From: a virus
Direction: 5' to 3' (one strand)
Virus record (IMG/VR): IMGVR_UViG_3300034044_000061
Span: 1 to 33,047 of that record
Length of the DNA: 33,047 bases
Shown here: positions 4,338 through 33,047 of the stretch, in pieces
Layout: each line of letters starts with the position of its first letter
Numbering within the stretch: the stretch's first letter is position 1
Translations under genes and position numbers: made by a program
Notes under the pieces: model-generated
The model's input: the letters and a program-made list of their open reading frames with translations, nothing else
Told to the model about the DNA's origin: nothing
Database searches by the model: none

Positions 4338-4356
4338 TAACTAGACAGGATCGACG

Positions 4357-17358: not shown

Positions 17359-17367
17359 TCTATTTAT

Positions 17368-17407: not shown

Positions 17408-20400
17408 ATGACAAACAAACCTTTAGCTTATTCAGTTGTAACCTCTCATAACAGTAATTTAACTAAAACATTAAAACTCGAAAATGGGAAGATTCTATCA
17501 ACAAATCCAGCTTTATATAGAGGTTTTTCTGAGCATAGAACTACAACTTTAGCTGAGTTCCCATCAGTCATTAAAAATTTAAATAAAAACCAGTGTTTAG
17601 CTACTGGTTGGATGGATAGCAAAACATCTAAAGTCGAAGTATTAACTCGAAGTGAGTTTGAAGCTAGAAAACTATCTTATCCTGTTCACGAAGATGACTC
17701 AGGAATTTATGGTACACGAAGTAAATTATCAATGATTCAAAAGGGTTCTAGCCTAATCATGCTAGATTATGACCCAGACCCACAAAACCCAAACAAGATA
17801 GATAACCCAGAAGATTTTTTATATTTATTGAACAAAGCTCTACCCGAAGCTAATTTATCCAACGTTTCCTATGTTAGAGATTATTCAACGTCCACAGCGC
17901 TTTATGATAAAAAAAGTGGTCAGGTAATAAGAGAGCCAGAGGGTTTCCATATTTATATGCAAATCAACGCTGGTGAAAACTTAGAAGCCTTCGCAAAACA
18001 TTTAGAATTAGGTTGTTGGAGAGCTAATTTAGGCTATATAAAAATTGGGTCGTCAGCCAACAGATTAACTAGAACTATACTCGATTTAGCGGTATTCACC
18101 CCAGAACGCTTAATCTATGCAGCTGGTGCTGATATTGCTGAAACAGAAACTTTTTATCAAAATCTGCCAATGGCTGAATATGTTGAAAAAGATATTAAAG
18201 AAATAAATACCAAAACCTTTAAAAAGCTAACACCAAAACAAAGTGCTGAGTTGCTGTCTCTACAAACACAGCTAAAAGAAAGTGACTCGGTAATGGAGCG
18301 AGTACAAGCCAAAAAACAACAATTAGAAACGAGACTTGTAAGTAAAAATCACTTTACTAAACACCCGTTAACTGAACAGGAAGCCCAGCGAACAGTATCA
18401 GCTATGTCACGCTATATACTTCACCCTGAGCACATTATTTATTTTGAAGACGGACGAGAAATAACCGTAGCCGAATTATTACAACGAAGTTCAGAATTTG
18501 ATGGTGTTGGTGTACTAGACCCATTTAGACCTGATAAAGGTTTTAGTCGGGCTAAATTTTATGCCAACCTAACTGAACAAGCGCCCGTAATTAATTCTTT
18601 TGTTGAGGGTGGAAGAACCTTTAATTTAAATGATACATATAACGAGTTTATTCGTGTCAGAACAGTTGAACACTCGGATATTGAATTATTGACCTTAGAC
18701 CCAGTAATACTGAATGAACGTTACTTCCCAGAAATAACCCTAAAAAAAGGTATAACTTTATTGAAAGGTGAAAAAGGGACAGGTAAAACTACAGCTATTG
18801 CTAGAAAAATAAAAGCTTGTGAGGGGCGTGTACTAGCCATAAGTCATAGAATTTCTTTAGTAAGCACCCTATGTAAGGATTTTAACCTAACCAGCTACAA
18901 CACATTTAATAACGATAAAGCCCACTTGATACGCCCTGAACCAAGACTAGGTGTTTGTTATAACTCATTACATCGGGTTTCAGGACTTGTCTATGACTTT
19001 GTGGTAATAGATGAATTTGTACAGCTAATAAGAACGATAAAATCTGGAATAGTTAAACATAAATTTTTGTGTCTAAAGGTGTTAAGGCACTTATTGCAAA
19101 CAGCTAAATACGTAATTCTAATGGATGCTGATATGTCTAAAGATATAATTGTTTTTTTAGCTGAAGGTGAGTTCTCGCTGTTTCCAGAGAAACCAAATTT
19201 TCACGTGATAGTAAATAAATATCTTCCAGCTAAAGGCAAGAAATTAAATATCTATCGTGATGCCGTAGATATTAATAAACCTGACAGGCTATCATTTGTG
19301 TTAGATTTTAGAGAAGCAATAAAAGATTCAGGTGTGTTCTATGCTTCTAACTCAAGGAACAATATTCTTTTTATGGCAGCTCAAGCTGTTGAAGTTTTAG
19401 GCGGTGACCCTGAGCTATCAGAAGAACATTTTATAACTGACTTTGGGGATAAACGAGTAATCACAATTACAGCCCATAACAGCCAAACTAAAGATGTTCA
19501 ATATTTTATTAAAAATATAAACTCAGAACTAAGAGAGACTGATATTTTTATGTCGAGCCCCTCACTTGGCACAGGGGTTTCTATTGATTCAGTAGATGGT
19601 AAGCCGAAATTACAGAAAGTTTTTGCCTATTTCACTAAACGGGCTGAAAATTTACCGAGTGACTGTCTACAGCATCTCGCTAGAGTTAGAGACTGCACTG
19701 ACCTTAACTTAGTAATAACACATTACAATACTCACCTTGAGTTAGACCCCATTAAGATTGTTCAGACAGAAGTATTAGGAAACAAAGGAATACTTGATAA
19801 ACACCTTACTTCGTTAGCAGTTTTTAATTGGGAAACTGGGGCTATAACGTTTAATGACCAAGGGTGGACAACTTATTACGGTGAATTGACCGCCCGTGAG
19901 AACTTAGAAAAGAACTCCTTTTATCCTAACTTTATTCAGCAGATTGCTGTTGAGGGTTTTGAATTAGAAGACGCTAGTTCAGCACCAACCCAATTGTGCC
20001 AAGAGTTAAAGGTTTATGAACAAAACCTAAAAAAAACATTAAAACAAGTTGAACGTGAGACACTAATTAACACTCCGCTAATTACTGATAAAGAATTTGA
20101 AGAACTTAAATCAAAGCTTACGTTAACGGCTGACGAACAGAGACAGTACTTTAAAAAAGCTCAGGCTGATTTGTTCGGGTTCCCACAAGAGACTGATGAA
20201 CTAAATGATTTAATCACACTTTCATCAGCTAAACTTAAAGGACGTGCTACGAGTTTAATTATTGGTGCTAACGCTGACGACTTAGCGTTACTTGATGTAA
20301 TATCTCGCTTAGATAAAAAACGACACGCTTTTTACCTACGCGCTTTATTTGACAGACGAGAGTTACTTTTAGGGTTACTTGAACACTTACATATAACTGT

Positions 20401-25099: not shown

Positions 25100-25384
25100 A
25101 TGACAAATGAAAACCAAGAGTTAACTGCGGTTGATAATGCAGCCGCCAACTTATTATTAACATCACCAATGCTAGCCTTAGCTGGGTCAATTAAAGCGTT
25201 ACCATTGCCAGTTTACTGTCAGACGTTTTTAGAAACAGAGGGGGCAGTAAAAAAACGTTTAGCTAAAGGAGTTTGGGTACATGGTGTTCATGCAAGTGTA
25301 CCTAATGGTGGTAAACGTTTGTGGATCAATTTAGAGGCTGTAAGTAAATGGGCGCTGGAAAACTCCCAAGAGGATTATATTTAA
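25100..25384 (+). CDS. Excisionase-like (Xis) protein
   Basis: A 94-residue protein located directly upstream of and overlapping the integrase (37 nt), as Xis genes usually do. The C-terminal half VKKRLAKGVWVHGVHASVPNGGKRLWINLEAVSKWALE fits the winged-helix excisionase layout: a helix followed by W-x-x-G, a beta hairpin, and a final W-helix (DUF1233-type). It would bend attP/attL/attR DNA to direct excision. Start with GGAATCGACGATG. Confidence 0.7.
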   Translation: MTNENQELTAVDNAAANLLLTSPMLALAGSIKALPLPVYCQTFLETEGAVKKRLAKGVWVHGVHASVPNGGKRLWINLEAVSKWALENSQEDYI

Positions 25385-26508
25385 GAGGTGAAACCTTGTG
25401 GATTCGTTTTAGTTATCGTGGTGTAAAATGCTACGAATCCACGAGAATCATTAACCCGACCAAAGCTCAGATTAAATATACAGCCAACCGCTTAGCTGAG
25501 ATACAACGTAAGATATACGAAAATATCTTTAGCTATGCGGAGTATTTCCCAGATAGTAAAAAGACACTTATTTTTGGCAACACGCCTAAATCACCCACCG
25601 TTGGCTATTACCTAGATAAATTCTATGAAAATGCTAGAAAGCGAGGTTTAGCTAAATCAACATTGCTCCCCCACCAAAGTAAAATTAACTCGTTCAAACA
25701 CTGGAAAACACTCCCTGTAAAACAGTTAACAACAAGCCATATTCAAACTTACATATCAACAAACAGTCACCTAACAACTGCTACATTGCGTGGTAGATTT
25801 TCAGTGCTTTCTTTAGCCCTAGATGAAGCCGTCTTAGATGGAATTATAGTTCAGAATCCAGCACGAGTTGTTAGTTTAGGAAACTACCTAAGAAAGGCTG
25901 ATAAAGTTGATAGAAATTTAATAAACGAAGACGTAAAACCATTTAGTAAACAAGAACAAGAAGCTATCTTAAATTCCGCTTCAACTAATATGAAATACTA
26001 CAACCTGATTAGTTTTCTATTTGAAACGGGTGTTAGAAGTTCAGAAGCTTGTGGGCTTCTCTGGTCGGATATAACAAAAAGCACAATTCATATTCGAGGG
26101 GCTAGGGTTTTAGGTGAAGACAAGAAAACCAAAACAGCCAGTGGTGCTAGACGAATCCCTATTTCAGATGCTTGTCGTTTAGCATTAGAAAACCAAGTAA
26201 TGATTTCTGGTTCACTACCAGATAAATATGTTTTTATAAATCGTGATAAACGACCAATCATCTTTGCAACCTTTAGAGAATCTTTTTGGAAGAATTGCCT
26301 TAAACGAGCCAATGTTGAATATCGCTACCCATACCAAACAAGACACACGTTCGCGTCACGATTAATTTCTCAAGGTATTAATCTTTGGAAGCTAACAAAA
26401 TTAATGGGGCATACTTCGCCAAAAATGCTTTATGAACATTATGGATATTACATCGAGGAATATGAAATTACCCACGGCAAAAACGAGGACGAGGATTCAT
26501 TTTTGTAG
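25348..26508 (+). CDS. int: Phage tyrosine recombinase (integrase)
   Basis: A 386-residue tyrosine recombinase. N-terminal arm-binding domain of the DUF3596/Arm-DNA-bind type (PRGLYLRGETLWIRFSYRG near residues 6-24), a core SAM-like domain (about 80-170), and catalytic domain with the first Arg in GVRSSEACGL (about 228-237), Lys in the SGARRIP strand, box II YQTRHTFASRL (first His of HxxR is replaced by Tyr, as in relatives of this subfamily), LMGHTSPKMLYEHYGYY with the nucleophile Tyr near 370. The extra alpha-helical I2 segment of integron IntI is absent, so this is not an integron integrase. The start overlaps Xis; GAGG lies upstream. Confidence 0.9.
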   Translation: MGAGKLPRGLYLRGETLWIRFSYRGVKCYESTRIINPTKAQIKYTANRLAEIQRKIYENIFSYAEYFPDSKKTLIFGNTPKSPTVGYYLDKFYENARKRGLAKSTLLPHQSKINSFKHWKTLPVKQLTTSHIQTYISTNSHLTTATLRGRFSVLSLALDEAVLDGIIVQNPARVVSLGNYLRKADKVDRNLINEDVKPFSKQEQEAILNSASTNMKYYNLISFLFETGVRSSEACGLLWSDITKSTIHIRGARVLGEDKKTKTASGARRIPISDACRLALENQVMISGSLPDKYVFINRDKRPIIFATFRESFWKNCLKRANVEYRYPYQTRHTFASRLISQGINLWKLTKLMGHTSPKMLYEHYGYYIEEYEITHGKNEDEDSFL

Positions 26509-26863
26509 TCAAAAGAATACAAAAAGAATACATTGAATTTTCGAGAGCTTTAAAAACTCAGAAAAAACACTAACTTAGAAGAAAACCTGCTTGCCTTGAT
26601 ATAACAAGACTCTTAATCCAGAGTCATCTCTGAGGGGCTTTATAGCTTTCATAAATCAATCAGTTATGGGGATAACTGTCCTAGTTAGTGCCTGAATAGT
26701 GCCTAAAAAAGAATACAATTTGGGGACAATTCAGTAAAAAAGCATACAAAAAGAATACAATTTGAATACAGTTAGTATGCAACCGAAAAATCAAAATAAC
26801 ACATCAGACCAGTAAAAAAAAGCCCCGTGGGTACGGGGCAAAAACCACAGGAGTGGCAGGGAG
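26509..26863. other. attP-like intergenic region with Int arm-type repeats
   Basis: 355 nt without an ORF between int and the lysis operon. AAAAAGAATACAATTTG occurs twice (26706-26722, 26748-26764), and related copies are AAAAAGAATACA at 26521-26532, AAAAGAATACA at 26511-26521, and AAAAAGCATACA at 26737-26748. These flank a 170-nt core candidate holding three small inverted repeats (CTTG-N6-CAAG; GACTCT-TAATCC-AGAGTC at 26608-26625; AGTTAT-GGGG-ATAACT near 26661) and a TAGTGCCT direct repeat. Repeats of this kind suit arm sites of a phage integrase on both sides of an attP core; the core itself cannot be defined without the host junctions. GACTCTTAATCC resembles part of a tRNA anticodon loop, but the stem does not fit. 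Confidence 0.6.
26814..26839 (-). terminator. Terminator of the lysis operon
   Basis: Read on the minus strand, GCCCCGT-ACCC-ACGGGGC is followed by eight T (complement of the A-run 26814-26821). It ends the transcript that runs from 30173 through the holin gene. Confidence 0.85.
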
Positions 26864-27382
26864 CTATAATTTGGTTAACGTGGCTCTATTTCTATCGCTA
26901 TTTTCTCTAGTTGTTCCATACCAATAGTGCATAGAACCAGCCCATTCTCGAATAATAATACCTAATAGTAGTTCTAGAATGGTTTTTGAATCATCGGGGA
27001 TATGTACAAAAAGAAGCGCGGCAATAATTAATCCTACAAATGCTGACAAACCCAAACACAGGATTGCTGGCATTTTAGAATCTTTGTTTTGGAGTCTAGC
27101 ATTACTTCTATCTTGAACCTCTAGTTTAAAAACATCTATATCAAGTGCTTGCATCTTAACGTTGTAATCATTATCAAGCTGTTTCAACTGAGCCATACGT
27201 TCAGGGGATAAGTTAGCCATGACTTTTGATAACTTAACTTCATCAGGTAACTTAGAATCGCGTTCGTCATCAGTAAGAAAATTATCAACAAGGAATTGAA
27301 CTGCGGAACCAATAAGGGGTGTTCCAGCGGTGGTTGCTAAAGCTGGGGCTACAGCCCCAATGATTTGTTTCCAGTCTGCCAT
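26864..27382 (-). CDS. Holin, GTA_holin_3TM family
   Basis: A 172-residue membrane protein with a hydrophobic N-terminal segment (IIGAVAPALATTAGTPLIGSA), a second span (ILCLGLSAFVGLIIAALLFV, about 107-126) and a third (ILELLLGIIIREWAGSMHYWYG). The layout and the DSKxPA-x-LxxG loop fit the 3TM holin of gene transfer agents and phages, which lets endolysin reach the cell wall. It is the last gene of the lysis operon; its start carries AGGTTATCGACGATG. The cluster of charge in residues 60-100 (SPERMAQLKQLDNDYNVKMQ) is a cytoplasmic coil. Confidence 0.8.
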   Translation of the reverse strand: MADWKQIIGAVAPALATTAGTPLIGSAVQFLVDNFLTDDERDSKLPDEVKLSKVMANLSPERMAQLKQLDNDYNVKMQALDIDVFKLEVQDRSNARLQNKDSKMPAILCLGLSAFVGLIIAALLFVHIPDDSKTILELLLGIIIREWAGSMHYWYGTTRENSDRNRATLTKL

Positions 27383-27401: not shown

Positions 27402-27959
27402 TTAAATATTGACTCGCTTCAAAAGCCAGCCATAAACGAATTGTTCGTTTTGTTTTCTTTTCTCTGCAAGTTCAATATACCTTGTACCTTGCAAACAATT
27501 CAAACCTTTTAACAAGACTTTTTCGCCTGTACCAGTCCTATAACCCAAGTAAGCATCTAAGGCATTCAGGCTCTTACTCCCCAACACACCATCAACAACT
27601 AAATCAGGAAAGAGATTCTCTTGCACGTTCATGGCGTTGAGTAATCGCTGTAACATCTTAATACTGGTTGAAACACCCATGTTTACCCCCGTATCAAATA
27701 ATTCTGCGGCAATAGGGAAGCTCAGTTCTGCAAGTTTATCGAGTTTTGGTTTAACCCAATAATCAGTTAGATATATTTGTTTAGCAACACCAAGAGGTAA
27801 GTCACGCATTTCTCCTGTGTAACCATGTTTAACAGCTATGGCTTTGGTTATTCCAAACGTAGTTTCAGAGCCTAAGTCATAAGCTTGGTTGCTATAACCA
27901 CCCTCAATTAATAGTAATTGCTCTAACATCTTAGAAACTTTTTTGCCTAAATTTAACAT
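27402..27959 (-). CDS. Endolysin, GH108-type N-acetylmuramidase
   Basis: A peptidoglycan hydrolase of 185 residues. EGGYSNQ (catalytic Glu near 19) and TTFGIT at about 32-37 fit glycoside hydrolase family 108; the C-terminal part (VVDGVLGSKSLNALDAYLG) is a PG_binding_3-like domain. No signal peptide is present, so export depends on the holin. The start at 27959 (MLNLGKK) is preferred to the upstream GTG at 28016, as TTGAGG lies 8-13 nt upstream and the extended version would overlap the previous gene with an odd Cys/Val-rich leader. Confidence 0.82.
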   Translation of the reverse strand: MLNLGKKVSKMLEQLLLIEGGYSNQAYDLGSETTFGITKAIAVKHGYTGEMRDLPLGVAKQIYLTDYWVKPKLDKLAELSFPIAAELFDTGVNMGVSTSIKMLQRLLNAMNVQENLFPDLVVDGVLGSKSLNALDAYLGYRTGTGEKVLLKGLNCLQGTRYIELAEKRKQNEQFVYGWLLKRVNI

Positions 27960-27976: not shown

Positions 27977-29209
27977 TCAAAACATAAATGACCAGTTGAG
28001 TGCATACACATACCACATAGTATCATCGATATTAGATTTTGCTTGTGGGTCAGAAAAATAATTGTAGTGATTAGCTAGAACACCTTTACTTCTGTGTATC
28101 TCAAATGTAAGTGCTTGGTCATCTGTAAAGTCGTAACGAAAACCAAGCATCAAGTCTTCATTATACCTGAATTCCTTAGGATATTGGTATATTTCACCCT
28201 CTGGACGAACCGATTCCCAGTAGTCACCATGTGGTGATTCCGTATCGAAATAGAATAAGGAAATCCCCCCATACATAGTTACTCTATCCATAAGTAACTG
28301 ACTAACATAAACGTTGAAACCACTAATACCACCTTTAGCAAAAGGTGGCTGCTCAGGGGCATCCTCAGGTATAGGTGCTTTGTTAAAATCCGAACTACGC
28401 AGTGGGTTGGCGTTGCCAAGATAAAGCTCAGCTAGAAACTCAGTTCGTATACTCGCCCTGCGCACACTAGCAACCATTTGTCTAAAGTGTTTCTGCTCTA
28501 AATTATATGAATCAAAGGTATAGCCAATATCATCAATTGTTAAGGATAAATCCCAACGCCTAGTTTTTGCTTTAAGCTCAACTTGCCACTTACTGTCATA
28601 GGTTGGATAACCCTCAATCCAAGTCTCTTTTAGTAATGCTGATAAAATACTTTCAGATTCAGAGGGAGAAAAACGTGGCTCACCGTAAGTAGCTGATAGT
28701 GATAAGTTAGTAGCGAGTGCCGAAATATACCGCTTGTAACTAGCTCGTACACCAGTCATTAATGAAGCTACTCCGAGTGTCGTCGTAAACATGGTGCTTT
28801 GAATTGGAATTACTGAATATCTAGCGTAAGGATTTTGAATCCCAGAGCCTTGCAACCCCATATTGGCATCAAGCAACCCAACATCAAAACTAAAGTTTTT
28901 GCTGAACTCATAATTTAGATAAAACCAATCAAGACCTACCTTATTTTGTAGGGCTGGGCGTAAACTTGTCTGAGCCTTGAAACTGAGCCCAGAGGGATAG
29001 TTTTTTAATAGATTCACACCCAATTCAGACATTGGAGATTTAAATAAGCTTTCATGCTCGGAGTCAATGTGTGTCACCCCACCAAAAATGGTTATACGAG
29101 CACTAGTGTTATCAGTTACTTGTGTATATCTACTAGAAAAAACACTGAAACTTGCTGCAATTAATAGACACATCCAAATAAAAATTATCCTACTTGGTAG
29201 TCTTTTCAT
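27977..29209 (-). CDS. Phage-borne outer-membrane beta-barrel protein (YjbH/porin-like)
   Basis: A 410-residue protein with a signal peptide (basic KRLPSR, then FIWMCLLIAASFSVFS) and many alternating beta-strands rich in Tyr/Phe/Trp. It ends in WSFMF, the aromatic C-terminal signature recognised by the BAM machinery. The pattern fits a YjbH/porin-like barrel, though the exact family is uncertain. It overlaps the upstream periplasmic-protein gene by ATGA and lies 17 nt from the endolysin, so it is expressed with lysis proteins. Possible roles: outer-membrane disruption at lysis (no spanin is recognised here), superinfection exclusion, or receptor change in the lysogen. No experimental role can be read from sequence. 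Confidence 0.75.
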   Translation of the reverse strand: MKRLPSRIIFIWMCLLIAASFSVFSSRYTQVTDNTSARITIFGGVTHIDSEHESLFKSPMSELGVNLLKNYPSGLSFKAQTSLRPALQNKVGLDWFYLNYEFSKNFSFDVGLLDANMGLQGSGIQNPYARYSVIPIQSTMFTTTLGVASLMTGVRASYKRYISALATNLSLSATYGEPRFSPSESESILSALLKETWIEGYPTYDSKWQVELKAKTRRWDLSLTIDDIGYTFDSYNLEQKHFRQMVASVRRASIRTEFLAELYLGNANPLRSSDFNKAPIPEDAPEQPPFAKGGISGFNVYVSQLLMDRVTMYGGISLFYFDTESPHGDYWESVRPEGEIYQYPKEFRYNEDLMLGFRYDFTDDQALTFEIHRSKGVLANHYNYFSDPQAKSNIDDTMWYVYALNWSFMF

Positions 29210-29670
29210 GGGGTCACCTGTAAAAGTTTAATATCATCAGTTTCTAAGATAATGGTATTGCTTCTGACGAAGCTCAAGGCTCTAGGCTCAGAGCCAACTA
29301 CCAACAACATATCATAGGTATCATCAACGTAAATTGGTAGTTCTCCAAAAGAATCTTTTGATAGCCGCGCCAATTTACGTTTATAAATATACATAGGTAT
29401 ATTCAATTCATTTAAGAGTTCCTGTGTCGATATTGACCTTAATGGCAATAACACAAGAATAACTTTTTCACCATTATCCCAATAAGGTGTTCTCCCCATA
29501 AACAAGTCTTCGAGCTCTGCGCGTGTGACAAATTTAGTCGGGTTTTTCTTGTTCACAACAGGGTCAGCTAGACAAACTGACAACCATAAGCTGAGAACAA
29601 AAAAGAGAACAATTAACGAGATTTTTTTAAAAGTTCTACATCTTTTTGAGTTGTTCTCAGCATTTGCCAT
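29206..29670 (-). CDS. Periplasmic PstS-like substrate-binding-domain protein (short)
   Basis: A 154-residue exported protein: basic N terminus, hydrophobic segment LIVLFFVLSLWLSVCLA, then a mature domain with FVTRAELEDLFMGRTPYWDNGEKVILVLLPLRSIS. The LxxLFxGRxxxWxxGxxVxxVxxP pattern is the one seen in PstS/PBP-like domain proteins that bind phosphate-like or small anions, but the domain is only half length. It overlaps the upstream gene by 58 nt and the downstream barrel gene by 4 nt. Pairs of PBP-like and outer-membrane proteins also occur in bacterial genomes, so the two genes were probably acquired together. Confidence 0.7.
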   Translation of the reverse strand: MANAENNSKRCRTFKKISLIVLFFVLSLWLSVCLADPVVNKKNPTKFVTRAELEDLFMGRTPYWDNGEKVILVLLPLRSISTQELLNELNIPMYIYKRKLARLSKDSFGELPIYVDDTYDMLLVVGSEPRALSFVRSNTIILETDDIKLLQVTP

Positions 29671-30173
29671 GTAGTACCAGCCTTATCATTGACTTGAGTT
29701 AATTTTTTTTCTATATCATCACGGAGTTTGTAAATTTTGTTGTCGTTGTTTACCCGCAACTGGGTAATTTGATTTTCAACTACCTGAGAAACCTTAGCCT
29801 CTGCGTGAGCATTGGCTTCTTCTAAATTAGAGAGTCTTGAGTTGAAGCTTGCATAGAACAAGGTGGCAGCGATACTAACACCAACAAGAACAATCACGTC
29901 TTTTATGGTAACGGATAATTTTGAGTCTCGGTTAACGTCGAGAGTATTCAACCCTATAGGGGTATTAAGCCCATGATGAGACTGATGTAGGTGGGACTCA
30001 AGCGGCTGACCATGCTGAGCGTGATAGGCGTTTAGATTACTAAGCACCTCAGCAATATTTATAGCTTGTGGCTTTTCAGCATGACACCGATAATGAGGTT
30101 TTGACTCTAAAGCTTGGCTAAGTATTTTTTCAATACTTTCAAGTATTTCTCGGTCTGTTTTGTGGTCAGCCAT
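29613..30173 (-). CDS. Membrane-anchored coiled-coil protein of the lysis operon (186 aa)
   Basis: A soluble N terminus (about 1-85, His/Gln-rich, LHQSHHGLN), one transmembrane segment (VIVLVGVSIAATLFYASF, about 90-108) and a C-terminal coiled coil (SRLSNLEEANAHAEAKV ... KLRDDIEKKLTQVNDK). This layout is like XhlA-type or spanin-like accessory lysis proteins, though none is matched. It is the first gene of the lysis operon, with GGAATCGACGATG at its start and a sigma70-like promoter about 65 nt upstream. Confidence 0.6.
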   Translation of the reverse strand: MADHKTDREILESIEKILSQALESKPHYRCHAEKPQAINIAEVLSNLNAYHAQHGQPLESHLHQSHHGLNTPIGLNTLDVNRDSKLSVTIKDVIVLVGVSIAATLFYASFNSRLSNLEEANAHAEAKVSQVVENQITQLRVNNDNKIYKLRDDIEKKLTQVNDKAGTTWQMLRTTQKDVELLKKSR

Positions 30174-31293: not shown

Positions 31294-33047
31294 TTAATAC
31301 CCGTTAGATTTATCGCCTAGTATAAAGCCAAAAGACCCTGTTTGTAACTCCCCTGAGTAACTTGTTGAGTTTACTTCAAAGGCAAAAGGCATTTTCTTGA
31401 ATGCTGGTGCTGGTACACCATCAACAAACACTGAAATAGTTAAATCACTAAATGTTGTATCAAATATTTGAGTTCTCAACTCTACATCAGCACTAACCAC
31501 ATCAAGTATCTGAGTCTGTAACTCTAGACTCTGCTCAGTTGTGCCAAAGATAGACGTTTCTAGCTCAACCGTCTGATTTACAAAACTAAAGATTTGAGTG
31601 CTAAACATCAAATCGGTAGATACAAAGCTAAGTATCTGAGTCCTTAGTTCAGCGTCTTGAGTTAACGAATCGAGTAGTTGAGTTCTTAACTCTAAATCTC
31701 CTGCTATAACACCAAGAATTTGCGTCCGTAATTCAGCAAACTGAGATACTGAACCTAGTATTTGATTTCTAAGTTCTAAATCTCGATATACGGTTAATAT
31801 CGCGGATAACACCTTAGTTTGCAAGATTAAATCTTGCGAAACACTACCTAAGATGCTTGTTCGCAAATCTAAGTCGTTACTAAGAGAACCTAGAATTTGA
31901 GTTTGTAAACTCACATCATTAGTTAAACTTGAAAGTACCTGAGTCCGTAAGTCTAAAGTCTGCTGGGCAACACCTAGGACATACGTTTGCAACTCAACAT
32001 CACTAAACACAGCATTAAAAATTCGTGTTTGTAATTCAATGTCTTTGGTAAGCGGTGCAAGTATTTGATTTTGTAGTTCAATACTATTAAAAACAGAACC
32101 TAATATTTGGTTTTGTAATTCAAGGTCTGATGTTATTGAGAGTAAGCCACCACTTGCTACAGCATACGCCCAGCTTACAATATCTGTACCATTCCATCCT
32201 TGCCCTGCTAGTGCTGTTTGACCATCGGAGTTAATGGTGTAATCACCGTTGGCTGGGTCTGTGAAGTAAGTATTGAGTGCTGTGTCTTGTGTGCCTATGC
32301 CAAGCGTTGTTGCTGATGTGTCAGACGATATATTGTTAGAGCCTATTGTACCCTTAAAACAAGGTGGGGTAGTAACACCATAATTATATTGGTTAGTGGT
32401 TAATAGTGACAAACAATTGGTTGCTATTGCTCCATCATTTATGTTGCCAAAACTGGAATAAGTACCCGCACAATCAATGATAATGCAATCGTCTAATTGT
32501 GCCGCGCCGTTGTTTACAGAGACTTTATAATTACGAACAGTGCTATTTCTTACTTTTGGTAAACCATTTTCCCAACGAGAAGTTGACGCGAGAAGATGAT
32601 TCGTTGTAAACTGTCCGTCAATATCACAATGATCATACGTTAAATTAAACCCTGTACCTTGTCCGCTTGTTACCACTATATTACTTTGAACAAGTTTAAC
32701 TCGACTCACATTGATATCAGTATTTGAGCCAAACATTGACAACTTTAGCCCCTCGATAGTTGGATAATTTGCAATTATTGTTTCATTACTTGTAATGTTC
32801 CAATTTAGCTCTACAGCATTCGTATTATTAGGATATTGCTCGGTATTTTCAACTAATACTCCAGACACAATTAAGTTTCTTGTTTGCGCAGAGGTTGGGT
32901 TGTCTAGTGCTCGCATTGCTGTTGACACAAGCGGATAATCTTTCAACGAACCCACAGTAAACACTTGTACAGGCACAATCTCTTGCCACTTATCTGTACT
33001 TGCATTATTAATTACCGCATGGTTATTGCCGATAGTGTCGGGGAATT
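31294..33047 (-). CDS. Tail fibre or appendage protein with beta-helix and sixteen 14-residue repeats, 5'-truncated
   Basis: The frame is open to the window edge (FPDTIGNNHAVINNASTDKWQ... upstream of the GTG at 32976, which is therefore internal), so at least 24 residues are missing from the annotated start and more lie outside. The first ~270 residues look like a right-handed beta-helix (VSRVKLVQSNIVVTSG, VRNSTVRNYKVSVNNG) ending in the YFTDPANGDYTINSDGQ element seen in choice-of-anchor-type proteins. Then sixteen ELRTQILGSVSQDL-like 14-residue repeats (31441-32121) form a repeat stalk, followed by a short C-terminal beta domain. Beta-helix plus stalk suits a receptor-binding fibre. Confidence 0.75.
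   Translation of the reverse strand, partial: FPDTIGNNHAVINNASTDKWQEIVPVQVFTVGSLKDYPLVSTAMRALDNPTSAQTRNLIVSGVLVENTEQYPNNTNAVELNWNITSNETIIANYPTIEGLKLSMFGSNTDINVSRVKLVQSNIVVTSGQGTGFNLTYDHCDIDGQFTTNHLLASTSRWENGLPKVRNSTVRNYKVSVNNGAAQLDDCIIIDCAGTYSSFGNINDGAIATNCLSLLTTNQYNYGVTTPPCFKGTIGSNNISSDTSATTLGIGTQDTALNTYFTDPANGDYTINSDGQTALAGQGWNGTDIVSWAYAVASGGLLSITSDLELQNQILGSVFNSIELQNQILAPLTKDIELQTRIFNAVFSDVELQTYVLGVAQQTLDLRTQVLSSLTNDVSLQTQILGSLSNDLDLRTSILGSVSQDLILQTKVLSAILTVYRDLELRNQILGSVSQFAELRTQILGVIAGDLELRTQLLDSLTQDAELRTQILSFVSTDLMFSTQIFSFVNQTVELETSIFGTTEQSLELQTQILDVVSADVELRTQIFDTTFSDLTISVFVDGVPAPAFKKMPFAFEVNSTSYSGELQTGSFGFILGDKSNGY
31441..32121 (-). repeat. Sixteen tandem repeats of 42 bp in the fibre gene
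   Basis: The repeat unit encodes ELRTQILGSVSQDL or close variants; fifteen units are 14 codons and one is 17 (ILQTKVLSAILTVYRDL), giving 681 bp. The units diverge by substitution while keeping L2, I6/L7, V10 and L14, so copy number may change by slippage or recombination. Confidence 0.85.

Follow-up and report, generated by a model that had tools for sequence, protein, structure and literature searches.

A diverged porin and half-length PstS-like gene pair in a phage lysis operon and its putative late role at the outer membrane

Introduction

The two-component spanins are among the systems closest to the locus described here, and many i-/o-spanin gene pairs are known to overlap (PMC6139136). 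Around 13% of surveyed phage genomes are without a recognisable spanin; that an o-spanin might be an outer-membrane protein is a possibility mentioned in the same survey (PMC6139136). Other points of comparison are the porin gene of the prophage DLP12, which adjoins lysis genes, and a pair of neighbouring bacterial genes encoding a porin and a half-length PstS-like protein. The literature on this bacterial pair, or on phage porins with PstS, was searched and nothing useful was found.

The window analysed here is the whole virus record IMGVR_UViG_3300034044_000061 (positions 1-33,047; 33,047 nt). A preliminary description, made from the letters of the DNA, had pointed to an outer-membrane barrel (P1) and a PstS-like domain (P2) inside a lysis operon. 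This arrangement is real and unusual. P2-P1 is most likely a captured bacterial pair that has been put to use at the outer membrane late in infection.

The record and its kin phages

The DNA polymerase shares 52% identity with its counterpart in Pseudoalteromonas phage KB12-38 and 34-39% with the enzymes of Achromobacter phage JWF, Caulobacter phage Seuss, Xylophilus phage Lumi and Acinetobacter phages. The records of these kin phages are about 77-85 kb long, hence the 33-kb record is a fragment that covers half of the phage genome at most. Replication and recombination genes occupy the plus strand as far as an integrase, the presence of which makes the phage look temperate, while the minus strand carries the tail genes and then the P3-P2-P1 lysis operon. 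No prophage copy was found in genome contigs by a polA profile search. The record of KB12-38 (MF098558) runs from the tail genes to the integrase, and the region expected to carry the lysis genes is absent from it.

A second contig, IMGVR_UViG_3300034045_000073, is 99.9% identical to the window over 20 kb, and the reading frames of P1 and P2 are intact in both. Among the few differences between the contigs, those at P1 residues 381 and 398 are both amino-acid changes and none is silent, which is too few for a statement on selection. The tail-fibre frame (31294-33047, minus strand) is truncated by the end of the record, the second contig giving 1032 aa; its C-terminal half contains numerous degenerate copies of a short ELRTQILGS-like motif, which was not reported by Tandem Repeats Finder.

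Anatomy of the operon

The operon is transcribed in the order P3, P2, P1, GH108 endolysin and 172-aa membrane protein (Table 1).

Table 1. Coordinates of the lysis operon, its flanking signals and the integrase in the window
Feature	Coordinates	Strand	Basis
Terminator-like hairpin between tail genes and P3	30389-30415	-	12 pairs, T tail
Promoter-like site upstream of P3	30239-30268	-	10/12 matches; such sites no commoner than in shuffles
P3, 186-aa single-TM protein, TM about 88-106, C-terminal tail coiled-coil-looking	29613-30173	-	Hydropathy
P2, 154-aa exported half-length PstS-like (PBP superfamily) protein, diverged (predicted)	29206-29670	-	Profile, hhalign, signal segment
P1, 410-aa exported porin-type outer-membrane barrel, diverged (predicted)	27977-29209	-	Profile, hhalign, C-terminal strand, strand pattern
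GH108 endolysin, 185 aa from ATG 27959	27402-27959	-	Pfam PF05838 E 8e-19, PF09374 E 6e-18; GAGG ribosome site
172-aa membrane protein, possible holin, last operon gene	26864-27382	-	PHROG 1544 (unknown function) E 4e-24; TM-like segment 107-125
Terminator-like hairpin after last operon gene	26822-26839	-	GCCCCGT/ACGGGGC + T run
Integrase	25348-26508		

P3 overlaps P2 by 58 nt and P2 overlaps P1 by 4 nt, in agreement with the preliminary description, which had also proposed an overlap of P1 with the endolysin. The latter is not needed, as the endolysin ATG, with the GAGG ribosome site in front of it, begins 17 nt past the end of P1, whereas the alternative start that would overlap P1, GTG 28016, has no ribosome site. 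Two of the lysis neighbours claimed at the time, the single-TM protein upstream and the endolysin downstream, were recovered, but a holin was not demonstrated, since the 172-aa product belongs to a PHROG of unknown function. The proposal of a single promoter is plausible in view of the promoter-like site and of the terminator-like hairpins at both ends, but promoter-like matches are no commoner than in shuffled sequence.

Because of the 58-nt overlap of P2 with P3 and the 17 nt that separate P1 from the endolysin, expression of P2-P1 apart from the lysis genes looks unlikely. Late, lysis-coupled expression, as originally proposed, is well supported by the gene order, the overlaps and a gap between P1 and the endolysin that is too short for a terminator; furthermore, a separate promoter for P2-P1 would read through into the endolysin gene. 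From the tool results and the anatomy of the operon, lysis-coupled expression of the pair is considered probable, with good confidence.

A leader, ATCGACG directly 5′ of the ATG, occurs at 12 sites, that is at about 12 genes, on both strands (0.67 expected by chance), including those at 4350, 12135, 16698 and 25093 on the plus strand and 27378, 30169 and 31260 on the minus strand. Within the operon, it is present at P3 and at the last gene and absent at P2, P1 and the endolysin. Judging from one of these copies, the start of the large primase/helicase-like gene is probably at 17408 and not at 17366.

Identity of P1 and P2

The description of P1 as a 410-residue barrel with a signal peptide is supported. 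P1 starts with a hydrophobic, signal-like stretch and ends in WSFMF, within the C-terminal aromatic strand YVYALNWSFMF, and 1 of 1000 shuffles reached an alternating-strand score as good or better. P2 has a strong hydrophobic signal segment at residues 17-35 and no standard lipobox, LSVC being found instead. Searches with the single sequences of P1 and P2 in Pfam, PHROGs, NCBIfam, PDB, phages, plasmids and IMG/VR, and for P1 also in GTDB genomes, returned nothing or only their own virus population. The AlphaFold2 models, built without deep alignments, were too poor to use (pLDDT 49 and 32).

The half-PstS family was located with a consensus sequence as bait, which matched 24 plasmid records and one phage record. 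The bait was kept out of all profiles and every test was made on database sequences. Seventeen loci were retrieved, and two profiles were built from database sequences of these loci, with P1, P2 and the bait left out; both were run on a set of 414 open frames together with 4000 shuffles. The half-PstS profile matched P2 with 33.9 bits (E 5.1e-9, profile positions 5-130), the best of the 4000 shuffles reaching 10.9 bits, and the porin-partner profile matched P1 with 35.4 bits (E 1.7e-9; best of 4000 shuffles, 8.9 bits). A frame of DLP12 nmpC, a true porin, obtains 23.7 bits with the porin-partner profile, which hence also detects porins generally. Profile comparison with hhalign gave probabilities of 95.6% for P2 and 95.8% for P1, and, for the controls, of 0.1% for P3 and of 0.5% for YjbH against the porin profile. 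The likeness of P1 to YjbH that had been suggested was rejected on this comparison and for want of a significant BLASTP match, P1 being predicted to be a general porin-type barrel.

Phosphate-binding proteins of known structure are hit by the half-PstS profile, and several of the bacterial porin partners are assigned to Porin_4 by Pfam; P1 itself has no match in Pfam, and its link to Porin_4 runs via the custom profile only. P1 presents the traits of a Gram-negative porin, namely a signal peptide, barrel strands and a C-terminal aromatic residue, and its barrel character is supported by homology together with the alternating-strand scoring. P2, previously described as a half-length exported PBP-like protein, matches the half-length PstS-like family over most of the profile length, and its direct neighbour is the porin-type P1, as in the family. 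This adjacency is stronger evidence for the predicted identities than either profile score alone. Taking tool results and anatomy together, P2 is very probably a half-length PstS-like protein and P1 a porin.

The pair in bacteria and in phage NCTB

In 15 of the 17 loci examined, the half-PstS gene has a porin-type gene immediately next to it, in either order. The neighbour in Saccharobesus, which had been left out of the profile, scores 26 bits with the porin-partner profile. The pair occurs in many Gamma- and Betaproteobacteria (among them Pseudoalteromonas, Alteromonas, Pseudomonas, Vibrio, Massilia, Ideonella, Caballeronia and Halomonas), in which the half-length partner is annotated as 'phosphate ABC transporter substrate-binding protein'. 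In 11 of 16 bacterial loci, the surroundings of the pair include chemoreceptor, histidine-kinase, GGDEF or EAL (c-di-GMP) genes, and these neighbours suggest sensing as a putative role. The pair is also carried by phage NCTB (LT598654), a 258-kb jumbo phage from surface water, as BN7874_180/179, where none of the ten scanned neighbours matches a lysis family. The annotated start of BN7874_180 is too late, the full frame being 151 aa with a signal peptide. An IMG/VR search with a DNA pattern of the half-PstS motif gave one chance match.

In P2, the start of the domain (VTRAELEDLFMGR) and its end (SEPRALSFV, like NPGAIGYV) are kept. The mid-domain W and F-x-G, invariant in the family (YW-S-K-L-x-F-T-G-K), are missing, and YKRKLARLSKDSFGE stands at that place. 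In P1, the W-x-YL-x-YE strand and the C-terminal strand are preserved, but little remains of the conserved R-x-P ... W-x-RPP stretch. These losses indicate that the phage copies are old or changed in use.

P3 and the spanin question

P3 is composed of an 87-residue N-terminal part, one TM segment and a helical-looking tail. Its PHROG matches are weak, including the Rz-like one (PHROG 20984, E 7e-4; Rz-like PHROG 7686, E 0.003), and no relatives were found in phages or IMG/VR beyond its own virus population. The earlier statement that no spanin pair is recognisable holds for the 33-kb record, which represents less than half of the phage genome: a lipobox scan, which recovered 3 of 3 known o-spanins as a control, gave no credible o-spanin frame in the lysis region of the window.

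Relatives were searched for spanins, as the preliminary description had advised, and these were found in two lysis cassettes. The cassette of Seuss has an annotated, overlapping i-/o-spanin pair located 3′ of the endolysin, and that of JWF has an Rz-like protein with a lipoprotein frame embedded in its gene, which was found by the lipobox scan. This embedded frame (LSSC; KP202971, 35233-35454) is unannotated and is likely an o-spanin. L040, a more distantly related contig, lacks the P2-P1 pair and has a TM-tail gene in direct overlap with the gene for a 43%-identical endolysin, an arrangement that points to insertion of the pair between a gene of this type and the endolysin. The absence of the ATCGACG leader at P2 and P1 is in keeping with such an insertion.

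Possible functions of the pair

In the explanation that we favour, a bacterial pair consisting of a half-length PstS-like periplasmic protein and a porin would have been captured by the phage, have diverged and been built into the late lysis operon. Shortly before lysis, P1 would reach the outer membrane and P2 the periplasm, while P3 would sit in the inner membrane, its tail reaching into the periplasm. After the endolysin has acted, the three proteins may jointly help to breach the outer membrane, a job done by spanins in the kin phages. This explanation, taken as a whole, is held tentatively, with a probability approaching but not reaching an even chance. The profile matches of P1 and P2 count in its favour, as do the occurrence of the pair in bacteria and in NCTB, and the single operon with its 58- and 4-nt overlaps, 17-nt gap and bounding terminator-like hairpins. 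The presence of spanins in the Seuss and JWF cassettes, as against none found in the window, likewise favours outer-membrane disruption in place of spanins, one of the options first listed. On the other side, the bacterial pair lies by sensory genes and not by lysis genes, the NCTB pair is not beside recognised lysis genes, P2 is without a standard lipobox, cysteines are lacking and the resemblance of P3 to Rz is weak. In addition, the record covers less than half of the phage genome, and a spanin may be encoded in the remainder.

A spanin-like role is the leading guess at the function of P3-P2-P1, prompted by the lack of a spanin in sight, the TM-tail gene P3 that overlaps the gene of an exported partner, and the published remark on o-spanins (PMC6139136). 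Only working like a spanin is proposed: membership among the spanins fails, since it calls for an outer-membrane lipoprotein with a lipobox, and P2 has LSVC. The more specific proposal of a three-part spanin analogue, in which a porin barrel and a PstS-like periplasmic adaptor replace the lipoprotein o-spanin, is unlikely. If true, it would represent a new phage route through the outer membrane, derived from a bacterial sensory or uptake pair.

Masking of a receptor ranks next and is possible, if somewhat unlikely. Here, the barrel and its partner would remodel the outer membrane late by masking, replacing or blocking the receptor of the phage, so that progeny do not attach to the dying cell and its debris, or competing phages are kept out during the final minutes. 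In favour of this, P1 is of the porin type, porins often serve as phage receptors, and DLP12 has a porin gene adjoining its lysis genes, although on the opposite strand. The lipoprotein Llp of phage T5 blocks the receptor FhuA from the periplasmic side and, according to the title of reference 22 in the same paper, is made early (PMC9586334). However, receptor blockers pay off early or in the lysogen, and P2-P1 would be hard to make apart from the endolysin.

That the pair is cargo of benefit to the host, serving the lysogen or the infected cell in nutrient (e.g., phosphate) uptake or in sensing, as its bacterial relatives may do, is distinctly unlikely. The chemoreceptor, kinase and c-di-GMP genes that adjoin the bacterial relatives speak for it, as do the matches of the half-PstS profile to phosphate-binding proteins and the location of the operon close to the integrase, hence near one end of the prophage. 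However, the pair has no promoter or insulation of its own and its transcription would enter the endolysin gene, no sensory or transport gene is nearby in the phage, and the loss of the invariant W and F-x-G from a half-length domain makes the phosphate uptake originally listed a weak option. The least probable reading, in which the pair is a recent or neutral hitchhiker, inserted between the TM-tail gene and the endolysin and of no importance to the phage, draws on the leader found at P3 and the last gene but not at P2 or P1, on the L040 contig without the pair and on the strong divergence from the bacterial family, but against it stand the intact state of both frames in two contigs, the close coupling of the genes, the preserved signal segments and final barrel strand, and the endolysin, which lacks the leader as well.

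Comparison with known systems

The arrangement is new in its place and perhaps in its use, while its parts were already known. As in the two-component spanins (lambda Rz/Rz1; Seuss, JWF and Seifer), the lysis cassette contains a TM-tail gene in overlap with the gene of an exported partner. The window differs in that there is no lipoprotein, that the outer-membrane part would be a barrel, that the genes lie upstream of the endolysin and that there are two exported partners; moreover, the P3 tail, mature P2 and mature P1 contain no cysteine. The operon is a compact test candidate for outer-membrane opening in phages without a recognisable spanin.

The NmpC/Lc-type porin gene of the lambdoid prophage DLP12 is likewise a phage-borne porin gene adjoining lysis genes, but it lies on the strand opposite to them and is without a PstS-like partner; the contrast drawn in the preliminary description between P2-P1 and insulated morons holds. 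Both window proteins match the bacterial porin/half-PstS pair by profile and lie side by side as it does, whereas the bacterial loci are often by sensory genes and the window pair is in a lysis operon and has lost conserved residues. The pair of phage NCTB belongs to a jumbo phage, is without a recognised adjoining lysis gene and is nearer to the bacterial consensus, but it shares with the window the P2-P1 order, the 4-nt overlap and the export of both proteins. Two unrelated phages carry the porin/half-PstS pair as a block, a finding that is relevant to its function in bacteria.
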